Positions 3,158 to 19,016 of a DNA stretch of 20,873 bases are shown one piece after another. The notes under the pieces are model-generated. The model ran no database searches. It had not been told where the DNA came from and saw nothing but the letters and a program-made list of their open reading frames with translations. How positions within the stretch are numbered: the stretch's first letter is position 1; each line of letters begins with the position of its first letter. The translations under genes were made by a program, and so were the position numbers. The DNA comes from a virus, in the IMG/VR virus record IMGVR_UViG_3300027784_000067, positions 1 through 20,873 of that record; one strand, given 5' to 3'.

Positions 3158-3613
3158 TTAAGAAGATGAAGGTTCAAGTGGTCTGTCACCATCTTCCTCC
3201 ACTTCGCTGTTTAATATTGTGCTAACATATTGCCAATCAGATTCATCAAGAATATTAATTTCAAAAGTATTTTCTACCAGTATCTCAACTTCTTGAATCT
3301 TATATTGAACATCAACAATATTATCATTGCTATCAACCACTATTCTCACGTCAGTTACTAGATGTAAAGTAGTATTTTGGCTTTTATTATAGCTATTTTC
3401 TATTGCTTCTGCTACAGCTGCGATTCCGCCATGAGCGTAATATGGCATATTTTCTTCTCCATCAAAGCCAGAACTATAATTATCTATATTATTTTCTATT
3501 ATCTTCACTAATTTATTATTGTCTTTGTCGGTAACAGTCTCTGCATCATCTTCGGCCTGATACTGATTTAGCGCAGAGACCATTTTTGAGAGTAGTTGTT
3601 CTTTAAGTGCCAT
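3158..3613 (-). CDS. Baseplate-block protein of unknown function, 151 aa
   Basis: ATG at 3613 follows AAGGAG with good spacing; the frame ends at 3158, 15 nt before the gp25-like gene. I do not recognise a family. The N-terminus is helical (KEQLLSKMVSALNQYQAEDD). A central segment has YYAHGGIAAVAEAIENSYNK (about 58-77). It is followed by three likely beta strands (LHLVTDVRIVVDSNDNIVDV, then VQYKIQEVEILVE). The end is acidic with a serine tail. It has no signal peptide or membrane segment. Its position between the central spike and the gp25-like wedge suggests a baseplate structural or assembly role, for example in tail-lysin or spike accessory functions, but that is inference from context alone. 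Confidence 0.75.
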   Translation of the reverse strand: MALKEQLLSKMVSALNQYQAEDDAETVTDKDNNKLVKIIENNIDNYSSGFDGEENMPYYAHGGIAAVAEAIENSYNKSQNTTLHLVTDVRIVVDSNDNIVDVQYKIQEVEILVENTFEINILDESDWQYVSTILNSEVEEDGDRPLEPSSS

Positions 3614-3626
3614 TAAGTTTCACTCC

Positions 3627-4373
3627 TTAACCTGTATGGCTGTCACTGCTTAACTGGCTTGTAGACATTGAAGTTATTGGAGGGCTCGTAGGCGATCCAA
3701 GATTACCAGTATGCGTATGCTGATTTATATAAGTTTTTAGACTATTACCCAGAGGAATAGGCTCAGCTCCACCTTGTAAATTGACATTGCCATCAGCATC
3801 TATATTAGCATTTCCTTTTGTTGTAACGCTTACATCACTATCACAATTTATATTAATTTCTGCAGAAGGCGTAGCTTCAATACTATATTTTGCACCTAAA
3901 TTCTCGAATAATGTAGTGCCATCTTTTTTCATAACCCATCTAGTATTCTGGTCTTGGTTTTCTATAAGCAAATCTTCAGCATAGCTAGAATTTAAGTCAC
4001 TATCATTTTCTATTTTTAATCCTTTTGCAACTATTGCGTCATCGTATGAATGGAACCTTTTAATTTGTGGGTTTTCTGGGTCTCCGCTAATAAGCAATTT
4101 ATCTAACGCTTTTTCACTAAATATCACTAAAACATTATCGCCTTTTTTATATGGTGGTCTAATTATAAATGGACCTGCGTTAAGATGCGCTACAGGAACT
4201 TCTACAATGGGCGGTATTTCAGCCATTTCTCCTTGCAATTCCTTCTTGTTTAACAGCTTAACTTTCGCATACATTGTTTTTGCATCGTACTCTTCTATCT
4301 TTGCTGGCAGTGAGGTATGAATGTCATGAATTCTTTCTTCTATCATTTTTCTTATTACTCTATTTGTTTTCAT
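3627..4373 (-). CDS. Baseplate central spike protein, gpV/gp138-like
   Basis: A 248-aa protein; its ATG at 4373 overlaps the stop of the hub gene as ATGA, with GAGGTGG upstream. The N-terminal ~110 residues (HTSLPAKIEEYDAKTMYAKV, then FIIRPPYKKGDNVLVIFSE) match the OB-fold domain of contractile-tail spikes (P2 gpV, phage Gp138 N-terminal type). The middle is a run of short beta strands (NINCDSDVSVTTKGNANIDA and neighbours), as in a trimeric beta-helical needle. The C-terminus holds an HTH triad (His219-Thr-His221) in INQHTHTGNLGSPTSPP; in gpV-type spikes an HxH motif near the tip binds iron. The final ~20 residues are Ser/Thr-rich. Expected role: membrane-piercing tip under the hub. Confidence 0.88.
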   Translation of the reverse strand: MKTNRVIRKMIEERIHDIHTSLPAKIEEYDAKTMYAKVKLLNKKELQGEMAEIPPIVEVPVAHLNAGPFIIRPPYKKGDNVLVIFSEKALDKLLISGDPENPQIKRFHSYDDAIVAKGLKIENDSDLNSSYAEDLLIENQDQNTRWVMKKDGTTLFENLGAKYSIEATPSAEININCDSDVSVTTKGNANIDADGNVNLQGGAEPIPLGNSLKTYINQHTHTGNLGSPTSPPITSMSTSQLSSDSHTG

Positions 4374-5541: not shown

Positions 5542-5589
5542 GCATATCACTTCCTAACTTACACTTATAATGTTATATATTGGTTGCCA

Positions 5590-5665
5590 GTGTATTTCCT
5601 ATGCATTTATATTATAACATAATAGTATACATCATTTAAACATTCAAATGCATGAGAGCACATCC
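5590..5665 (+). repeat. Hairpin element copy A (75-77 bp dispersed inverted-repeat family)
   Basis: Left arm GTGTATTTCCTATGCATTT (5590-5608), a 37-nt AT-rich spacer (5609-5645), right arm AAATGCATGAGAGCACATCC (5646-5665). As plus-strand single strand the inner 13 positions pair except a C/A mismatch at position 10; the outer stem is decayed. It lies 18 nt after the stop of the Dit-like gene and 48 nt before the ATG of the plug gene, both on the minus strand, so it would be transcribed as the complement. The spacer can fold an inner TATTAT-AAC-ATAATA hairpin. Copies B and C share arms and exact spacer length. There is no T-run, so it is not a standard terminator. Confidence 0.75.
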
Positions 5666-5683
5666 TAATGATTGTTTGATATA

Positions 5684-6258: not shown

Positions 6259-8748
6259 TTATCCACCACTTTCCTGTACTTCTATTTCTTCAAAGATCTG
6301 CTCAATTTCTTCTCTTATCTTGCTTCTTATTTGCGGTATATCTTCAGCAGATACGTTATCAAAATTGAAATCTAAGTCAATATTATTGTTAGCTTCTTTT
6401 GCTCCTTGCGATCTTCTCTGAGCGATTGGCGAGCCAGATTGGCTATTGTCAACTTCAATGTTTACGTTAGGCTGATGTGAATCTGATGGGGTGCCTGCAG
6501 ATACATTGTTTGAACCATCATCTCCACCAATTCCTGGTATTTTGTTTAGCCAGCTTCCACTTATGTCAAATACACTTTCTAATAGATTACTGAAACTCAA
6601 ATTATCGTCCATCCAATCACCTAAGTCGTTCCACCAATCTTGTACAGGCTCAATAATATTAGGAAACTCAAAATCTACCTCCCAATCTGGAAGTGAAGGC
6701 CAGCTTATATTATCAAACCATTGCCCTACATTACTCCACCAATCTCCTAGCCATTCAACAATGTTAGGAAGATTAATTTTTTCATGTTCCCACTTAGGGA
6801 TATCTGGCCAGTCAAATGAAGTATTCCACCATTCAGCAATCTCATTATGCCAATCTATGAAATCATCAGTTGTTGGCAATCCTAACCATTCAGCAACATC
6901 ATTGTATCTATCCTCAACTGCCTCTGGCAGATCAACTATAAGAAGGTCTATTATTCCGCCAATTGCGCCGATAAACCAATTTAATCCTGACCATGCTGCT
7001 GATGCTATAGACATAATTCCTGAGCTTATTCTTCTAAACCCAATTTCTATTTTTGCAGCTCCAATTTTAATATCATCAAATCCGCTCATTAACAAATCCA
7101 AATCTCCAGTCAAAAGCCATTTAATCGCTCCGCCTATTATCTTAAGCGCTCCCCAAAACTGGTCTAACATTCCATCAACGACAATATTAATTCCAGTTAC
7201 TAAATCATACAGTGTGTCATTTACGTCCATTACAATTTCTGCAAAATCACGGCTTACTCCAATTATGTCAAGAAATTTATTAATCCACGGAATTAACGCT
7301 GAGTCGTAGCCGTCTTGCATGCCTAAATATAAATCCTCAATTATTAAATATAACCCAGCTACTGCTGCAGTTATTGCTAAAAATTTCCCTACTCCTATTC
7401 CTAATATTCCAAGAAGTCCAGTAAAAGCAGTTTTTACGGCAGATAAAGGTTTTGCAGCTAAGCCAGCTACAGCTCCTATTCCAGCTATTACAGTAACTAC
7501 TCCAAGCATTCCTCCAACTAAAGCTTGAGTAGACTCTGGCATCTTGTTGAATATATTAATTAACCCAGTTACTTTCTCCATAGCACCTGAAATTATAGGA
7601 GTAAAGAAATTCCCAATGTTTATAGCAGCAACATTAATACTACCACGTAATCTGTCAAAAGAACCTCTTAAAGTGTCTAGCTGATCCTCTGCCATTTCTC
7701 TTGCAGTTCCGCCAGCATCACTAAGTTTTTCTTCAAAGTCAGATATGTCTTCAGAGCCGCCTTGCATTATTTTTAAGAAAGTCCTAGCTGCTCGCCTAGG
7801 CATTACTTCACCTAATGCTGTCATTCGCTCTTCATCAGTCATTCCAGCTAATGCAGATTCAAACTCTCTTATAGTTTCAGTTATTCCAATAAAATCTCCC
7901 TGTGCGTTCCATAAGTCTACACCTAAATTCTCAATTGCTTTTTCAGCCTTACCAGTAGGTGTCATTAGCGTGGTTAATGCCGTGTTTAATCTACGACCAG
8001 CTTGAGTACTTAAATCACCTCTATCTGCAAGAGTACCCAGTGTTGCTGTCAATTCTTCTACTCCTACTCCTACGTTAGAAGCAAGCGATGCAACTTCTGT
8101 AAAAGCTTCACCCATCTCCTGTGCAGTAGTCATACTTTCAGCAGAGGCTTTTGCAAAAACGTCTACAAATCTTCTAGTCTCATCAAACTCAAGGCCCATA
8201 ACATTGACTGATTTTGCTACAATATCTGAAGCTGTAGATAATTTCATGCTCTCTATTGCTGCTAAATCTAACATCTGAGGCATAACTTGCATAATTTCAT
8301 TAACTCCTAAACCAGCTCTTGCAAATTCTTCCATTCCTTCTGCAGCTTCTTTTGCAGTAAAAGCAGTCTCAATCCCTAAGTTTTTAGCTTCTTCTTTTAA
8401 CATATTAAGCTCTTCAGCTGTAGTTCCTGCTACGTTTCCAACTCTAGTCATCTGGAAGTTAAAGCTTGAGGCAGATTTTGTTGTTCTTGCTATTGCAGCT
8501 CCAGCAGCAGTAAAAGCCCCAACTAAATAATATCTATATTGTCTAGCTAATGATACTGCAGTTCCTAAAGAAGCTTTTATCTGTGCACCAGCAAGTCGAG
8601 CTGAGGCGCCTAATTTTCCAAAAGTAGTCGAAGACATTTGAACATTTCTCTTTAGCCTGTTGACCTGTGAATTAGCAGACTTTAGCTTTCTATCGTTTAT
8701 TCCAAAATTTATGCCGAACCTAACACTTCTTGCTTTATTCCCAGGCAC
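6259..8748 (-). CDS. Tail tape measure protein, TP901-type core
   Basis: An 829-aa protein. GTG at 8748 (product starts MPGNKARSVRFG) has AAGGAGG eight nt upstream and lies one nt after the stop of the tail-chaperone extension. The N-terminus is basic. The region from about 75 to 345 is the TP901 core typical of tape measures: TAEELNMLKEEAKNLGIETA, FTAKEAAEGMEEFARAG, a GVGVEELTATLGTLADRG segment and RRAARTFLKIMQGG. A hydrophobic stretch of Gly/Ala/Ile (about 410-480) holds likely membrane segments, followed by another near 590. From about 610 to 720 the protein is Trp-rich, with repeated WP-x-[IL]-P-x-W and PNI[IV]E units. It sets tail length and is delivered into the cell envelope on infection. 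No peptidase or lysozyme motif was seen. Confidence 0.95.
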   Translation of the reverse strand: MPGNKARSVRFGINFGINDRKLKSANSQVNRLKRNVQMSSTTFGKLGASARLAGAQIKASLGTAVSLARQYRYYLVGAFTAAGAAIARTTKSASSFNFQMTRVGNVAGTTAEELNMLKEEAKNLGIETAFTAKEAAEGMEEFARAGLGVNEIMQVMPQMLDLAAIESMKLSTASDIVAKSVNVMGLEFDETRRFVDVFAKASAESMTTAQEMGEAFTEVASLASNVGVGVEELTATLGTLADRGDLSTQAGRRLNTALTTLMTPTGKAEKAIENLGVDLWNAQGDFIGITETIREFESALAGMTDEERMTALGEVMPRRAARTFLKIMQGGSEDISDFEEKLSDAGGTAREMAEDQLDTLRGSFDRLRGSINVAAINIGNFFTPIISGAMEKVTGLINIFNKMPESTQALVGGMLGVVTVIAGIGAVAGLAAKPLSAVKTAFTGLLGILGIGVGKFLAITAAVAGLYLIIEDLYLGMQDGYDSALIPWINKFLDIIGVSRDFAEIVMDVNDTLYDLVTGINIVVDGMLDQFWGALKIIGGAIKWLLTGDLDLLMSGFDDIKIGAAKIEIGFRRISSGIMSIASAAWSGLNWFIGAIGGIIDLLIVDLPEAVEDRYNDVAEWLGLPTTDDFIDWHNEIAEWWNTSFDWPDIPKWEHEKINLPNIVEWLGDWWSNVGQWFDNISWPSLPDWEVDFEFPNIIEPVQDWWNDLGDWMDDNLSFSNLLESVFDISGSWLNKIPGIGGDDGSNNVSAGTPSDSHQPNVNIEVDNSQSGSPIAQRRSQGAKEANNNIDLDFNFDNVSAEDIPQIRSKIREEIEQIFEEIEVQESGG

Positions 8749-8749
8749 C

Positions 8750-9016
8750 TCAGCGACCTCCTTCTCCTTTTCTCTGGCTGTTCATTTGCTTTTTCTTTTC
8801 GTTTTCTATCATTTCAAAAGCTTGATAGGCCTCTTCAAATTCGTCATCGTCCATCTCCATAACAGCATTAATGTCTTTTGTGTAATAAGCCAAGTCATAC
8901 ATCCTCAACTTTCTTGGATTTTTTCTTAACCTAGCTCTATATTTTGGCTTATTTATCTCTTCAATGTAATGTATCCCATAATCTCCTACTACATATTTAG
9001 AATGTTTAGGTTTATA
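8750..9016 (-). CDS. Tail assembly chaperone, frameshift extension (gpT-like)
   Basis: An 88-codon open frame between the chaperone first frame and the tape measure, with no usable start of its own. The first in-frame ATG lies deep inside, and an RBS-like AGGAG nearby serves only an 8-codon ORF in another frame. Upstream the frame is closed by TAG, so entry must occur in the short interval before 9012. It reads YKPKHSKYVVGDYGIHYIEE, then KYRARLRKNPRKLRMYDLAY, and ends in a charged helix with QRKGEGGR. Codon use and acidity match neighbouring genes. In many phages such an ORF is made only as a frameshift fusion with the preceding chaperone and recruits tail tube protein to the tape measure. 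The predicted fusion is 81+88 residues. Confidence 0.75.
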   Translation of the reverse strand, partial: YKPKHSKYVVGDYGIHYIEEINKPKYRARLRKNPRKLRMYDLAYYTKDINAVMEMDDDEFEEAYQAFEMIENEKKKQMNSQRKGEGGR

Positions 9017-9023
9017 GAAATGA
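9012..9023 (-). promoter_or_regulatory. Predicted +1 programmed frameshift site UCA-UUU-CUA-UAA
   Basis: The last zero-frame codons of the chaperone are UCA, UUU, CUA and UAA (9023 down to 9012). The downstream 88-codon frame is +1 relative to this. The overlap between its preceding TAG and the zero-frame UAA is only a few codons, so the shift must occur here. tRNA-Phe can move from UUU to UUC by one base, the mechanism known for influenza PA-X (UCC-UUU-CGU). A small inverted repeat, ATAGAA-TCAT-TTCTAT, spans the site. I see no -1 slippery heptamer. The shift is inference from frame structure. Confidence 0.65.
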
Positions 9024-9260
9024 TTCTATCTCATCGACAACGTTACGCATTTCAGTTACGCTATCAAAATCGTCAAAACTTAAGTCAGATGGCTCTAATA
9101 CTACGTTATCAAACAAGCCTTGAATATACTTCTCTCTAATTAAGTTTCCTTGTGGGTCAGTGCACCTATCAGAATGCTGCACAGTCCACCGCACCTTTGG
9201 TCTTTGAAGCACATATTTTTGCCCGTCAATAGTTATTTCTTTTTTATCTCCAGCAGGCAT
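9012..9260 (-). CDS. Tail assembly chaperone, first frame (gpG-like)
   Basis: An 82-aa protein with ATG at 9260 and AAGGAGG seven nt upstream. It reads KKEITIDGQKYVLQRPKVRW, then VQHSDRCTDPQGNLIREKYI and a helix ending VVDEIESFL. The 'ItidGkky.lQ.P..Rw...hsDrc...G.l..ekyiqgLfdNVv.eP' pattern is typical of small chaperones placed between tail tube and tape measure genes in contractile phages (XkdN/TAC type). It would coat the tape measure during tail assembly and is absent from the virion in studied phages. Its stop UAA follows the predicted slip site, so most ribosomes should make this short form. It lies 42 nt downstream of the tube gene stop. Confidence 0.85.
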   Translation of the reverse strand: MPAGDKKEITIDGQKYVLQRPKVRWTVQHSDRCTDPQGNLIREKYIQGLFDNVVLEPSDLSFDDFDSVTEMRNVVDEIESFL

Positions 9261-9302: not shown

Positions 9303-9710
9303 TTATACGTCAAATGATTCTTCATAATTAGCGACTATCAATGTCCATTCTCTTTCTTCAAGCTCGCCACCTTTTTCAAAATCAGGCAAACTCTGAACAA
9401 CGCATTCTGATCCATAAGCTGAAACATCGCCAGAGACATTTTGGTCGACACAAGCAAAAGAGAATGGTTCATCTTGGTTATATAGCTCCTCTAACTTGCT
9501 ATTTGCTTGCGAATTACCTTGAAGAGTGATAGTAACCTCAGCTGCATCATTAGCATTTTTCGTAAAGGTATGATTACCTTGAGCGCCAACATAAATATCT
9601 CTCTTGTCTTCCATTCGGCTTGCTGTAATCATTGTTCCTTCAGCAAAACCAGTAATTTCAGTCCCATCAACTACTGTATGAACTCGTTGCGGATCATATC
9701 TCATATTCAT
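9303..9710 (-). CDS. Tail tube protein (DUF3277-like)
   Basis: A 135-aa protein; ATG at 9710 has AAAGGAGG three nt upstream of a short spacer. The sequence begins MNMRYDPQRVHTVVDGTEIT, then GFAEGTMITASRMEDKRDIY and VGAQGNHTFTKNANDAAEVT. This follows the DUF3277/KPP10-type tube pattern: a 'v.v.vdG..itGfa.dg.mi' start, a 'v....G......n.nd..a.vtitL.q.S..N..L' core and a final 'e.ew.l...' strand. The length fits (130-150). It sits directly after the sheath gene, the canonical contractile-tail order. Monomers should stack as hexamers inside the sheath. A Cys pair (SFACVDQN and SECVVQ) is present; no function is evident for it. Confidence 0.88.
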   Translation of the reverse strand: MNMRYDPQRVHTVVDGTEITGFAEGTMITASRMEDKRDIYVGAQGNHTFTKNANDAAEVTITLQGNSQANSKLEELYNQDEPFSFACVDQNVSGDVSAYGSECVVQSLPDFEKGGELEEREWTLIVANYEESFDV

Positions 9711-9725
9711 TAACCTCCTTTACTT

Positions 9726-10766
9726 TTATACAGTTAGCGTCCCTTCAATTTCTACACTGTGAACAGCTCCAGCTACAGTTGCAGTAAACTCAATATCTGG
9801 GAGTATCCTATCTGCTAGATTAACGTCAGATATCTCATCTCTAGTTGGATAACTTACACTCCAAAGTGCGTTTCCGTCTGCATCTCTAGCTATAATTCCC
9901 TGTGAAGCAGCTCTCTGTAAAACATCTTTAAGCTTGCCGACAACTTGGCTAATTCCAATATCATCAAGAGGAGTTTTTCCTGGGCCACTTAACAAGAAGA
10001 ATATTTCCTCTTTAATTCTAGATTTTAACCAATCTTTAGAGCGCTGAATATCTATATATCCGCCATCAGTAGTCTTCCCTTCAAGTGTCATGTCAGTTGC
10101 ATATTTCGTGATATAAGTGTTTGCTGGTCCGCCATCTTCAGCATCAAGCAGAGAATTAATATCAGTGTTTGTGTAAGTTACAGGTGCTACCCCGTTAAGA
10201 GCTTTGAACATCCACGTTGAAGAGCCTGGATCAGTTACTGACATTCTGCCTGTAAAACTTGCGTCCATATACTGCTCTTCTTCTTCTGTTCCTCCGTCAT
10301 GTGCACAAGCAGCTGCGCGGCTAGAAGAAATAGTTTCAATAGACGTATTAATAGCACTAACAGAAGTCGAAACATCATACTGACCTATGAATAACTTTCC
10401 GTTAGAACTCGCCCAGCCTGCAGCCTCTTCAAGATCTGCTTCTGTTCTAGAAGTAATCATCAAGAAATACCAATCATCATTACCTTCAGGCTCAAGTTTA
10501 TCCAGCTCTTCTGAAATACTTGTCCCAGAAGCTTCTATATCTACCCCATATACAGCTACCTCACTTGGGCTAGGTTCTTGTGCAAAATACTGCTCTACCA
10601 TATCATAAAGCGGATCACCAGAAGATACATTTGTTAAATCACTTGTTGACTCAATTTCTTTATAGTCGATGTCATTACCGTCATCAAATATTAATCCGAG
10701 ACCAAACCCTGCTTTTGAAATTGGAGTAGTCTCGTCGAATATTGTGACATCAATAATATCTACCAT
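9726..10766 (-). CDS. Contractile tail sheath protein (DUF3383-like)
   Basis: A 346-aa protein with ATG at 10766 and GAGGAGG upstream. Features of DUF3383 sheath proteins are visible: a start with FDETTPISKAGFGLGLIFDD, then the DPLYDMVEQYFAQEPSPSEV segment (about 52-71), a DDWYFLMITSRTEADLEEAA region, and a C-terminal GISQVVGKLKDVLQRAASQG followed by beta strands with FTATVAGAVHSVEIEGTLTV. Sheath subunits polymerise around the tube and contract on infection. The presence of this gene is the main evidence that the tail is contractile. The length is at the short end for sheaths, suggesting few extra surface domains. It lies between the neck terminator and the tube gene. Confidence 0.92.
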   Translation of the reverse strand: MVDIIDVTIFDETTPISKAGFGLGLIFDDGNDIDYKEIESTSDLTNVSSGDPLYDMVEQYFAQEPSPSEVAVYGVDIEASGTSISEELDKLEPEGNDDWYFLMITSRTEADLEEAAGWASSNGKLFIGQYDVSTSVSAINTSIETISSSRAAACAHDGGTEEEEQYMDASFTGRMSVTDPGSSTWMFKALNGVAPVTYTNTDINSLLDAEDGGPANTYITKYATDMTLEGKTTDGGYIDIQRSKDWLKSRIKEEIFFLLSGPGKTPLDDIGISQVVGKLKDVLQRAASQGIIARDADGNALWSVSYPTRDEISDVNLADRILPDIEFTATVAGAVHSVEIEGTLTV

Positions 10767-16060: not shown

Positions 16061-16123
16061 ACGTTTACCACCACCTTGCTTTTTAGCTGTAACAAAACAC
16101 CAGATTGTTATTAGGGTTTTATA

Positions 16124-16200
16124 GTGTATGTTCCTGTGCATTTATATATTATGGATGTATATTATATCACATATATAATCAAATGCATGAGAGCATATAA
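16124..16200 (+). repeat. Hairpin element copy B (75-77 bp dispersed inverted-repeat family)
   Basis: Left arm GTGTATGTTCCTGTGCATTT (16124-16143), 37-nt spacer (16144-16180), right arm AAATGCATGAGAGCATATAA (16181-16200). As plus-strand single strand, 18 of the inner 19 positions pair, counting four G-T wobbles; the one mismatch is C/A at position 10, as in the other copies. It lies 23 nt after the stop of the Com-like gene and 63 nt before the ATG of the protease. It has the same orientation as copy A and is opposite to transcription. Confidence 0.78.
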
Positions 16201-18903: not shown

Positions 18904-18978
18904 GTGTATTTCTCATGCATTTGATAGTTAAGATGTATATTACTATTGATATAATATCTAAATGCACAGGGAATACAC
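18904..18978 (-). repeat. Hairpin element copy C (75-77 bp dispersed inverted-repeat family, opposite orientation)
   Basis: On the minus strand: GTGTATTCCCTGTGCATTT (18978-18960), 37-nt spacer (18959-18923), AAATGCATGAGAAATACAC (18922-18904). Of 19 positions 17 pair, with mismatches at 10 (C/A, shared with A and B) and 12, and two wobbles. The outer seven pairs (GTGTATT/AATACAC) differ in sequence from copy B yet still pair. It lies 38 nt after the terminase stop and 41 nt before the portal ATG, and is the only copy transcribed in its folding orientation. Confidence 0.78.
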
Positions 18979-19016
18979 TGAGGCTATAAATATAACGAAT
19001 ATATTACACGTTACTA

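Follow-up and report, generated by a model that had tools for sequence, protein, structure and literature searches.

Programmed +1 frameshift sites are scarce in bacteria and difficult to detect. The closest described counterparts of the locus analyzed here come from archaeal myoviruses: in 2020, the tail assembly chaperone (TAC) of the HF1 group (HF1, HF2, Serpecor1, and Hardycor2) was proposed to be made by a +1 shift at TTT-CGC (PMC7230728), and the TAC of HSTV-2 is also listed as +1 (PMC5009743). When we checked HF2, we found AAG TTT CGC AGA TAG with the +1 frame open. The TACs of lambda (G/GT), Felix O1-like phages, Pakpunavirus, Vequintavirus, and similar phages belong to the -1 kind, and a GTTTTT -1 site is conserved in Vandenendeviridae and Andersonviridae (PMC12846349). 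Influenza A PA-X (UCC_UUU_CGU) and the amalgaviruses have a +1 shift at UUU followed by C with no clear stimulator. In the Listeria phages PSA, A118, and A500, a +1 shift at the re-pairing codon of CCC_U occurs in capsid and major tail protein genes, at sites that stand beside a stop or a pseudoknot (PMC5009743).

We analyzed a virus record of 20,873 bases with 36% G+C (the window, meaning the whole stretch of DNA). Every recognized gene lies on the minus strand, in the order terminase, portal, head genes, tail terminator, sheath, tube, chaperone region, tape measure, hub, and baseplate; because a sheath gene is present, the tail is taken to be contractile. A small pair of ORFs (9260-8750) sits between the tube (9710-9303) and tape measure (8748-6259) genes, as lambda G/GT does. 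An earlier note on this DNA had placed a tail chaperone at positions 8750-9260; the coordinates were correct, with the feature on the minus strand. The features of the region are as follows.

9726..10766, minus strand: tail sheath (DUF3383 / phrog_205)
9303..9710, minus strand: tail tube protein (KPP10_Orf10 / phrog_280)
9012..9260, minus strand: TAC-N, the frame-0 tail assembly chaperone ORF, 82 aa, with an ATG start and an AGGAGG-type SD (aaaggaggggtttga ATG)
9017..9020, minus strand: predicted +1 shift site UUU_C, inside UCA_UUU_CUA_UAA (9023-9012)
8750..9025, minus strand: +1 frame encoding the TAC-C extension, without a start codon near the overlap
8750..9260, minus strand: predicted TAC-NC fusion, 169 aa, with its junction between ESF and YKPK and TTTC read as one Phe
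6259..8748, minus strand: tape measure protein (PhageMin_Tail / phrog_1533), with a GTG start at 8748

Elsewhere in the window, the tail module includes two minus-strand genes (3161-3613 and 3630-4373), flanked by those for the baseplate hub and wedge, that had no PHROG match. Three intergenic stretches (5588-5666, 16123-16192, and ~18904-18982) carry a similar element of 70 to 80 nt. It includes an imperfect palindrome (ATGCATTT...AAATGCAT) and may be a promoter or regulatory sequence that recurs.

Frame 0 (9260-9012, 82 codons) terminates in GAA TCA TTT CTA TAA. The +1 frame (9025-8750) spans 91 codons from stop to stop, 87 of them past the frame-0 stop, and closes with a TGA (8752-8750) adjoining the GTG of the tape measure gene. 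The -1 frame stays open for just 7 codons past the frame-0 stop, and the combination of -1 frame and slippery heptamer that marks classical -1 TACs was not found. The two frames overlap by 14 nt, within which UUU is the only codon compatible with re-pairing. Near this overlap, the +1 frame has no ATG or GTG; its first TTG and ATG stand ~39 to 41 codons in, within the extension. The description in the earlier note of a +1 frame that lacks a start and is entered only at the end of the first frame thus held, as did the predicted junction ESFYKPK: translation of TTTC as a single Phe yields the 169-aa fusion with ...EIESFYKPK. As in lambda G/GT, the second ORF overlaps the first in a different frame without a start of its own, and this arrangement is conserved in relatives. 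A profile built from the second frames of relatives, with the window excluded, had the window's second ORF as its sole significant match among 158 window ORFs (E=2.2e-4), which argues that this ORF is more than a chance open frame.

The identification of the locus as a tail assembly chaperone, proposed in the earlier note, draws support from gene position and from predicted fold. The first frame matches phrog_1778 (unknown function; E=1.4e-15), and its AlphaFold model (pLDDT 84) has a beta hairpin followed by helices. A Foldseek comparison with viral models placed annotated TACs of Bacillus phages 019DV002 and Gemini and of ChaoS9 among its closest matches, with a probability of 1.00 and TM of 0.63 to 0.66, but with weak E-values (0.011 to 0.020); the single strong match (E 2.1e-5) was an uncharacterized protein. 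Judged from the model, the N-terminal domain thus resembles a TAC fold. No solved structure in the PDB matched the first-frame model in Foldseek, and no curated TAC model in Pfam or NCBIfam matched the chaperone family; TAC families are very divergent. Pfam also gave a weak, sub-threshold match between the second frame and mitochondrial ATP synthase D, which we attributed to helical similarity and discounted. A TAC of a contractile-tailed phage related to Bacillota phages is the best explanation of the locus.

Relatives were drawn from phage records, from IMG/VR, from a set with one genome per species, and from an even draw of ~398 Bacillota genomes. When the window's own two frames were used as queries in a close-relative search of viral contigs, only a near-copy of the window was found; the relatives were reached via the tube, the sheath, and the chaperones of Roos, AP45, and D6E. 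The even draw of Bacillota genomes contributed four clear matches, one of them previously collected. L098, a match in G237 (E 5e-4) that lies within a 479-aa frame, was set aside as likely false. Most relatives have 21 to 35% identity to the window's first frame, and the second frame is in +1 register in all relatives examined from this chaperone family. The frameshift-type set comprised 45 tail-chaperone loci from Bacillota phages and prophages; 26 loci under 70% identity formed a representative set.

We read the site codons at the Phe homologous to F81 in an alignment of the first frames. At this position, 39 of the 45 frameshift-type loci have UUU-C and one (L065) has UUU-U, making 40 UUU-type loci, and five have CCC-N; the six exceptions likewise have codons capable of re-pairing. 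The codon that follows UUU in the 39 UUU-C loci is CTT in 35, CTA in the window, CTC in L097, and CAA in D6E and L036. Among the CCC-N loci, CCC-A is found in the four retained Pd_22F-like loci and CCC-U in L059, and the +1 frames are open around these CCC codons. Across the representative set, UUU-C is present in 25/26 loci, compared with 5.6% of Phe codons and 28% of Phe-Leu pairs in the same loci; because the loci are related and not independent draws, we claim no P value for this conservation. The alignment of relatives that the earlier note called for therefore showed that UUU-C is kept, and this conservation at a homologous codon lends support to its interpretation of the locus as a candidate +1 shift at UUU-C.

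The constraint extends to codon choice. Scored against each locus's own usage, Leu CTT (22/24 versus 4.4 expected; z, 9.35) ranked first and Phe TTT (26/26 versus 15.9 expected; z, 4.33) second among 36 conserved columns, and double coding by both frames at the site could be part of this constraint. Neither an SD-like stimulator upstream nor a hairpin stimulator downstream of the site was conserved in the 26 representatives. Further, we found no avoidance of in-frame UUU_CUU elsewhere in the same loci (19 seen versus 14.1 expected). Since other genes do not avoid it, the hexamer is probably weak as a site on its own, and context that we did not recognize may be needed besides it.

The window family resembles the described systems in part. 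Like the HF1-group and HSTV-2 TACs, it has a myovirus TAC pair flanked by the tube and tape measure genes and a +1 direction, and with the HF1 group it shares a UUU-C near the first-frame stop, a prediction only in both cases; the HF1 group differs in its archaeal hosts, its A-site CGC, and its longer first frame (156 codons in HF2). The -1 TACs of lambda, Felix O1-like phages, Pakpunavirus, and Vequintavirus have the same gene position, two-frame design, and presumed role, but the second frame was -1 in 7/7 phages from Gram-negative hosts in which the window's tail tube family is present, whereas it is +1 in the window family. The earlier note had called the site the same type as that of PA-X. 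Both do have UUU then C, with a +1 direction and no clear stimulator, and in the window family UUU-C stands conserved at the only possible switch point; however, the A-site codon is CGN in PA-X and amalgaviruses but CUA in the window and CUU, CUC, or CAA in its relatives, the ribosome is bacterial, and the proteins are unrelated. The likeness to the Listeria phage sites lies in a +1 shift at a re-pairing codon of a tail gene in Bacillota phages, with CCC-U in L059 and CCC-A in the Pd_22F group as the counterparts of CCC_U; the Listeria sites differ in belonging to genes other than TACs. An RF2-type site (CUU_UGA with an upstream SD-like sequence) does not describe the locus, which uses another codon, does not place a stop in the A site, and shows no SD enrichment.

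In a Paenibacillus/Brevibacillus prophage clade (L060-L064, L066, L068-L078, and L080-L087), the two ORFs are arranged differently. UUU-C is at the site in 0/25 of these loci, all 25 have a second-frame start (ATG or GTG) within the overlap zone, 20 of them with an SD match of -5 kcal/mol or better; a start with such an SD match was found in 0/45 frameshift-type loci, the loci having been grouped after inspection of the sequences and not blind. In this clade, the second chaperone ORF begins inside the acidic tail of the first gene. In a midpoint-rooted tree built from tube plus chaperone, with the site columns excluded, loci with UUU-C fall to either side of the root. Those with a separate start group together in a single clade (SH-aLRT 99), and CCC requires two changes. 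Because the separate-start loci fall in one clade, they represent one evolutionary event and not 25. In the Paenibacillus sp. 2.1 assembly, frame breaks in the chaperone region distinguish two near-identical copies of one prophage (L047 and L050); these breaks have the appearance of assembly errors.

Single-locus breaks such as these would favor a reading in which a sequencing error, or a recent frameshift mutation, split one gene in two. For the window, we regard this as having next to no chance of being correct. A second contig, IMGVR_UViG_3300000557_000058, which is 99.8% identical to the window over 15,238 bp (27 mismatches and 2 gaps), was assembled separately and is 100% identical across 801 bp at the chaperone locus, which makes a sequencing error unlikely and led us to reject it; moreover, dozens of distant relatives share this +1 arrangement, which contradicts both error and recent mutation. 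The second ORF could instead be a separate protein, made by independent initiation or by re-initiation after the frame-0 stop, as the Paenibacillus/Brevibacillus clade apparently does. However, the overlap zone of the window has no ATG or GTG, the first candidate starts of its second frame lie inside the extension, no frameshift-type locus offers a start with an SD match at the threshold used, and separate initiation would leave the conservation of the UUU and CUU codons without a reason. We therefore rejected independent initiation for the window, where it has a very low probability.

A rival judged marginally less probable still retains the second frame but reaches it otherwise, by a -2 shift, a +1 shift at UCA or CUA, or RNA polymerase slippage. 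A -2 shift lands in the same frame as a +1 shift, and the junction peptide is not fixed by sequence alone. However, tRNA-Phe could not re-pair after a -2 shift in the window, where CAU stands two bases upstream, and UUU is invariant while the neighboring codons vary across the family, which argues against a shift at those neighbors. With variable codons just upstream, the UUU-type loci have no switch point in common other than UUU. Transcriptional slippage usually needs a long homopolymer run, and none is present here.

Given the sequence evidence, programmed +1 frameshifting at UUU-C very probably makes a minor tail-chaperone fusion protein. UUU-Y is known to be +1-prone in bacteria. Most ribosomes would make the 82-aa TAC-N, and in the remainder the P-site tRNA-Phe would move from UUU to UUC, giving the +1 shift; we infer the ribosomal slip at UUU-C, the tRNA mechanism, and the low fusion ratio alike. 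By analogy with lambda, TAC-N may coat the tape measure while the C-terminal part recruits tube subunits, and a low fusion yield would suit such a chaperone. In lambda, the molar ratio is kept at about 30:1 (PMC5009743), and tested HK97-like TACs gave 6 to 7% (PMC3711429).

The earlier note held a +1 UUU-C site to be worth recording. It is conserved across the family, but this type of site had already been predicted, as TTT-CGC in the HF1 group (PMC7230728), and together with the HSTV-2 listing this gives a tail chaperone made by a +1 shift at UUU-C a precedent. Within the open-licence PMC literature, what appears to be new comprises a +1 UUU-C TAC in bacterial phages, its conservation throughout the family, the constraint on the CUU codon, and the replacement of the site by CCC-N or separate initiation. 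We consider it likely that a lineage of Bacillota contractile-tailed phages and prophages had an ancestral UUU_CUU +1 chaperone, that CUU is part of the signal, and that the site was replaced once by a start codon and twice by CCC-N.

For annotation, the second frame is missed, shortened, or called a separate hypothetical gene in the records of Roos, AP45, D6E, and Pd_22F, which can be corrected. For instance, of the second frame of Faecalibacterium phage Roos (L004 5227-5442), GenBank has just a 129-base piece, annotated as orf14, and a shift at its UUU-C would give the full chaperone extension; Roos can be induced with mitomycin C (PMC11792537). According to the PRFect paper (PMC10885494), forward shifts have no general motif identified to date; the conserved UUU_CUU in a widespread tail-gene family is a simple motif that can be searched for. 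The family also offers a natural comparison of frameshifting with separate initiation for the same two protein domains and, if the proposed history is true, would provide a natural series for studying the requirements of a bacterial +1 site that functions with no known stimulator.
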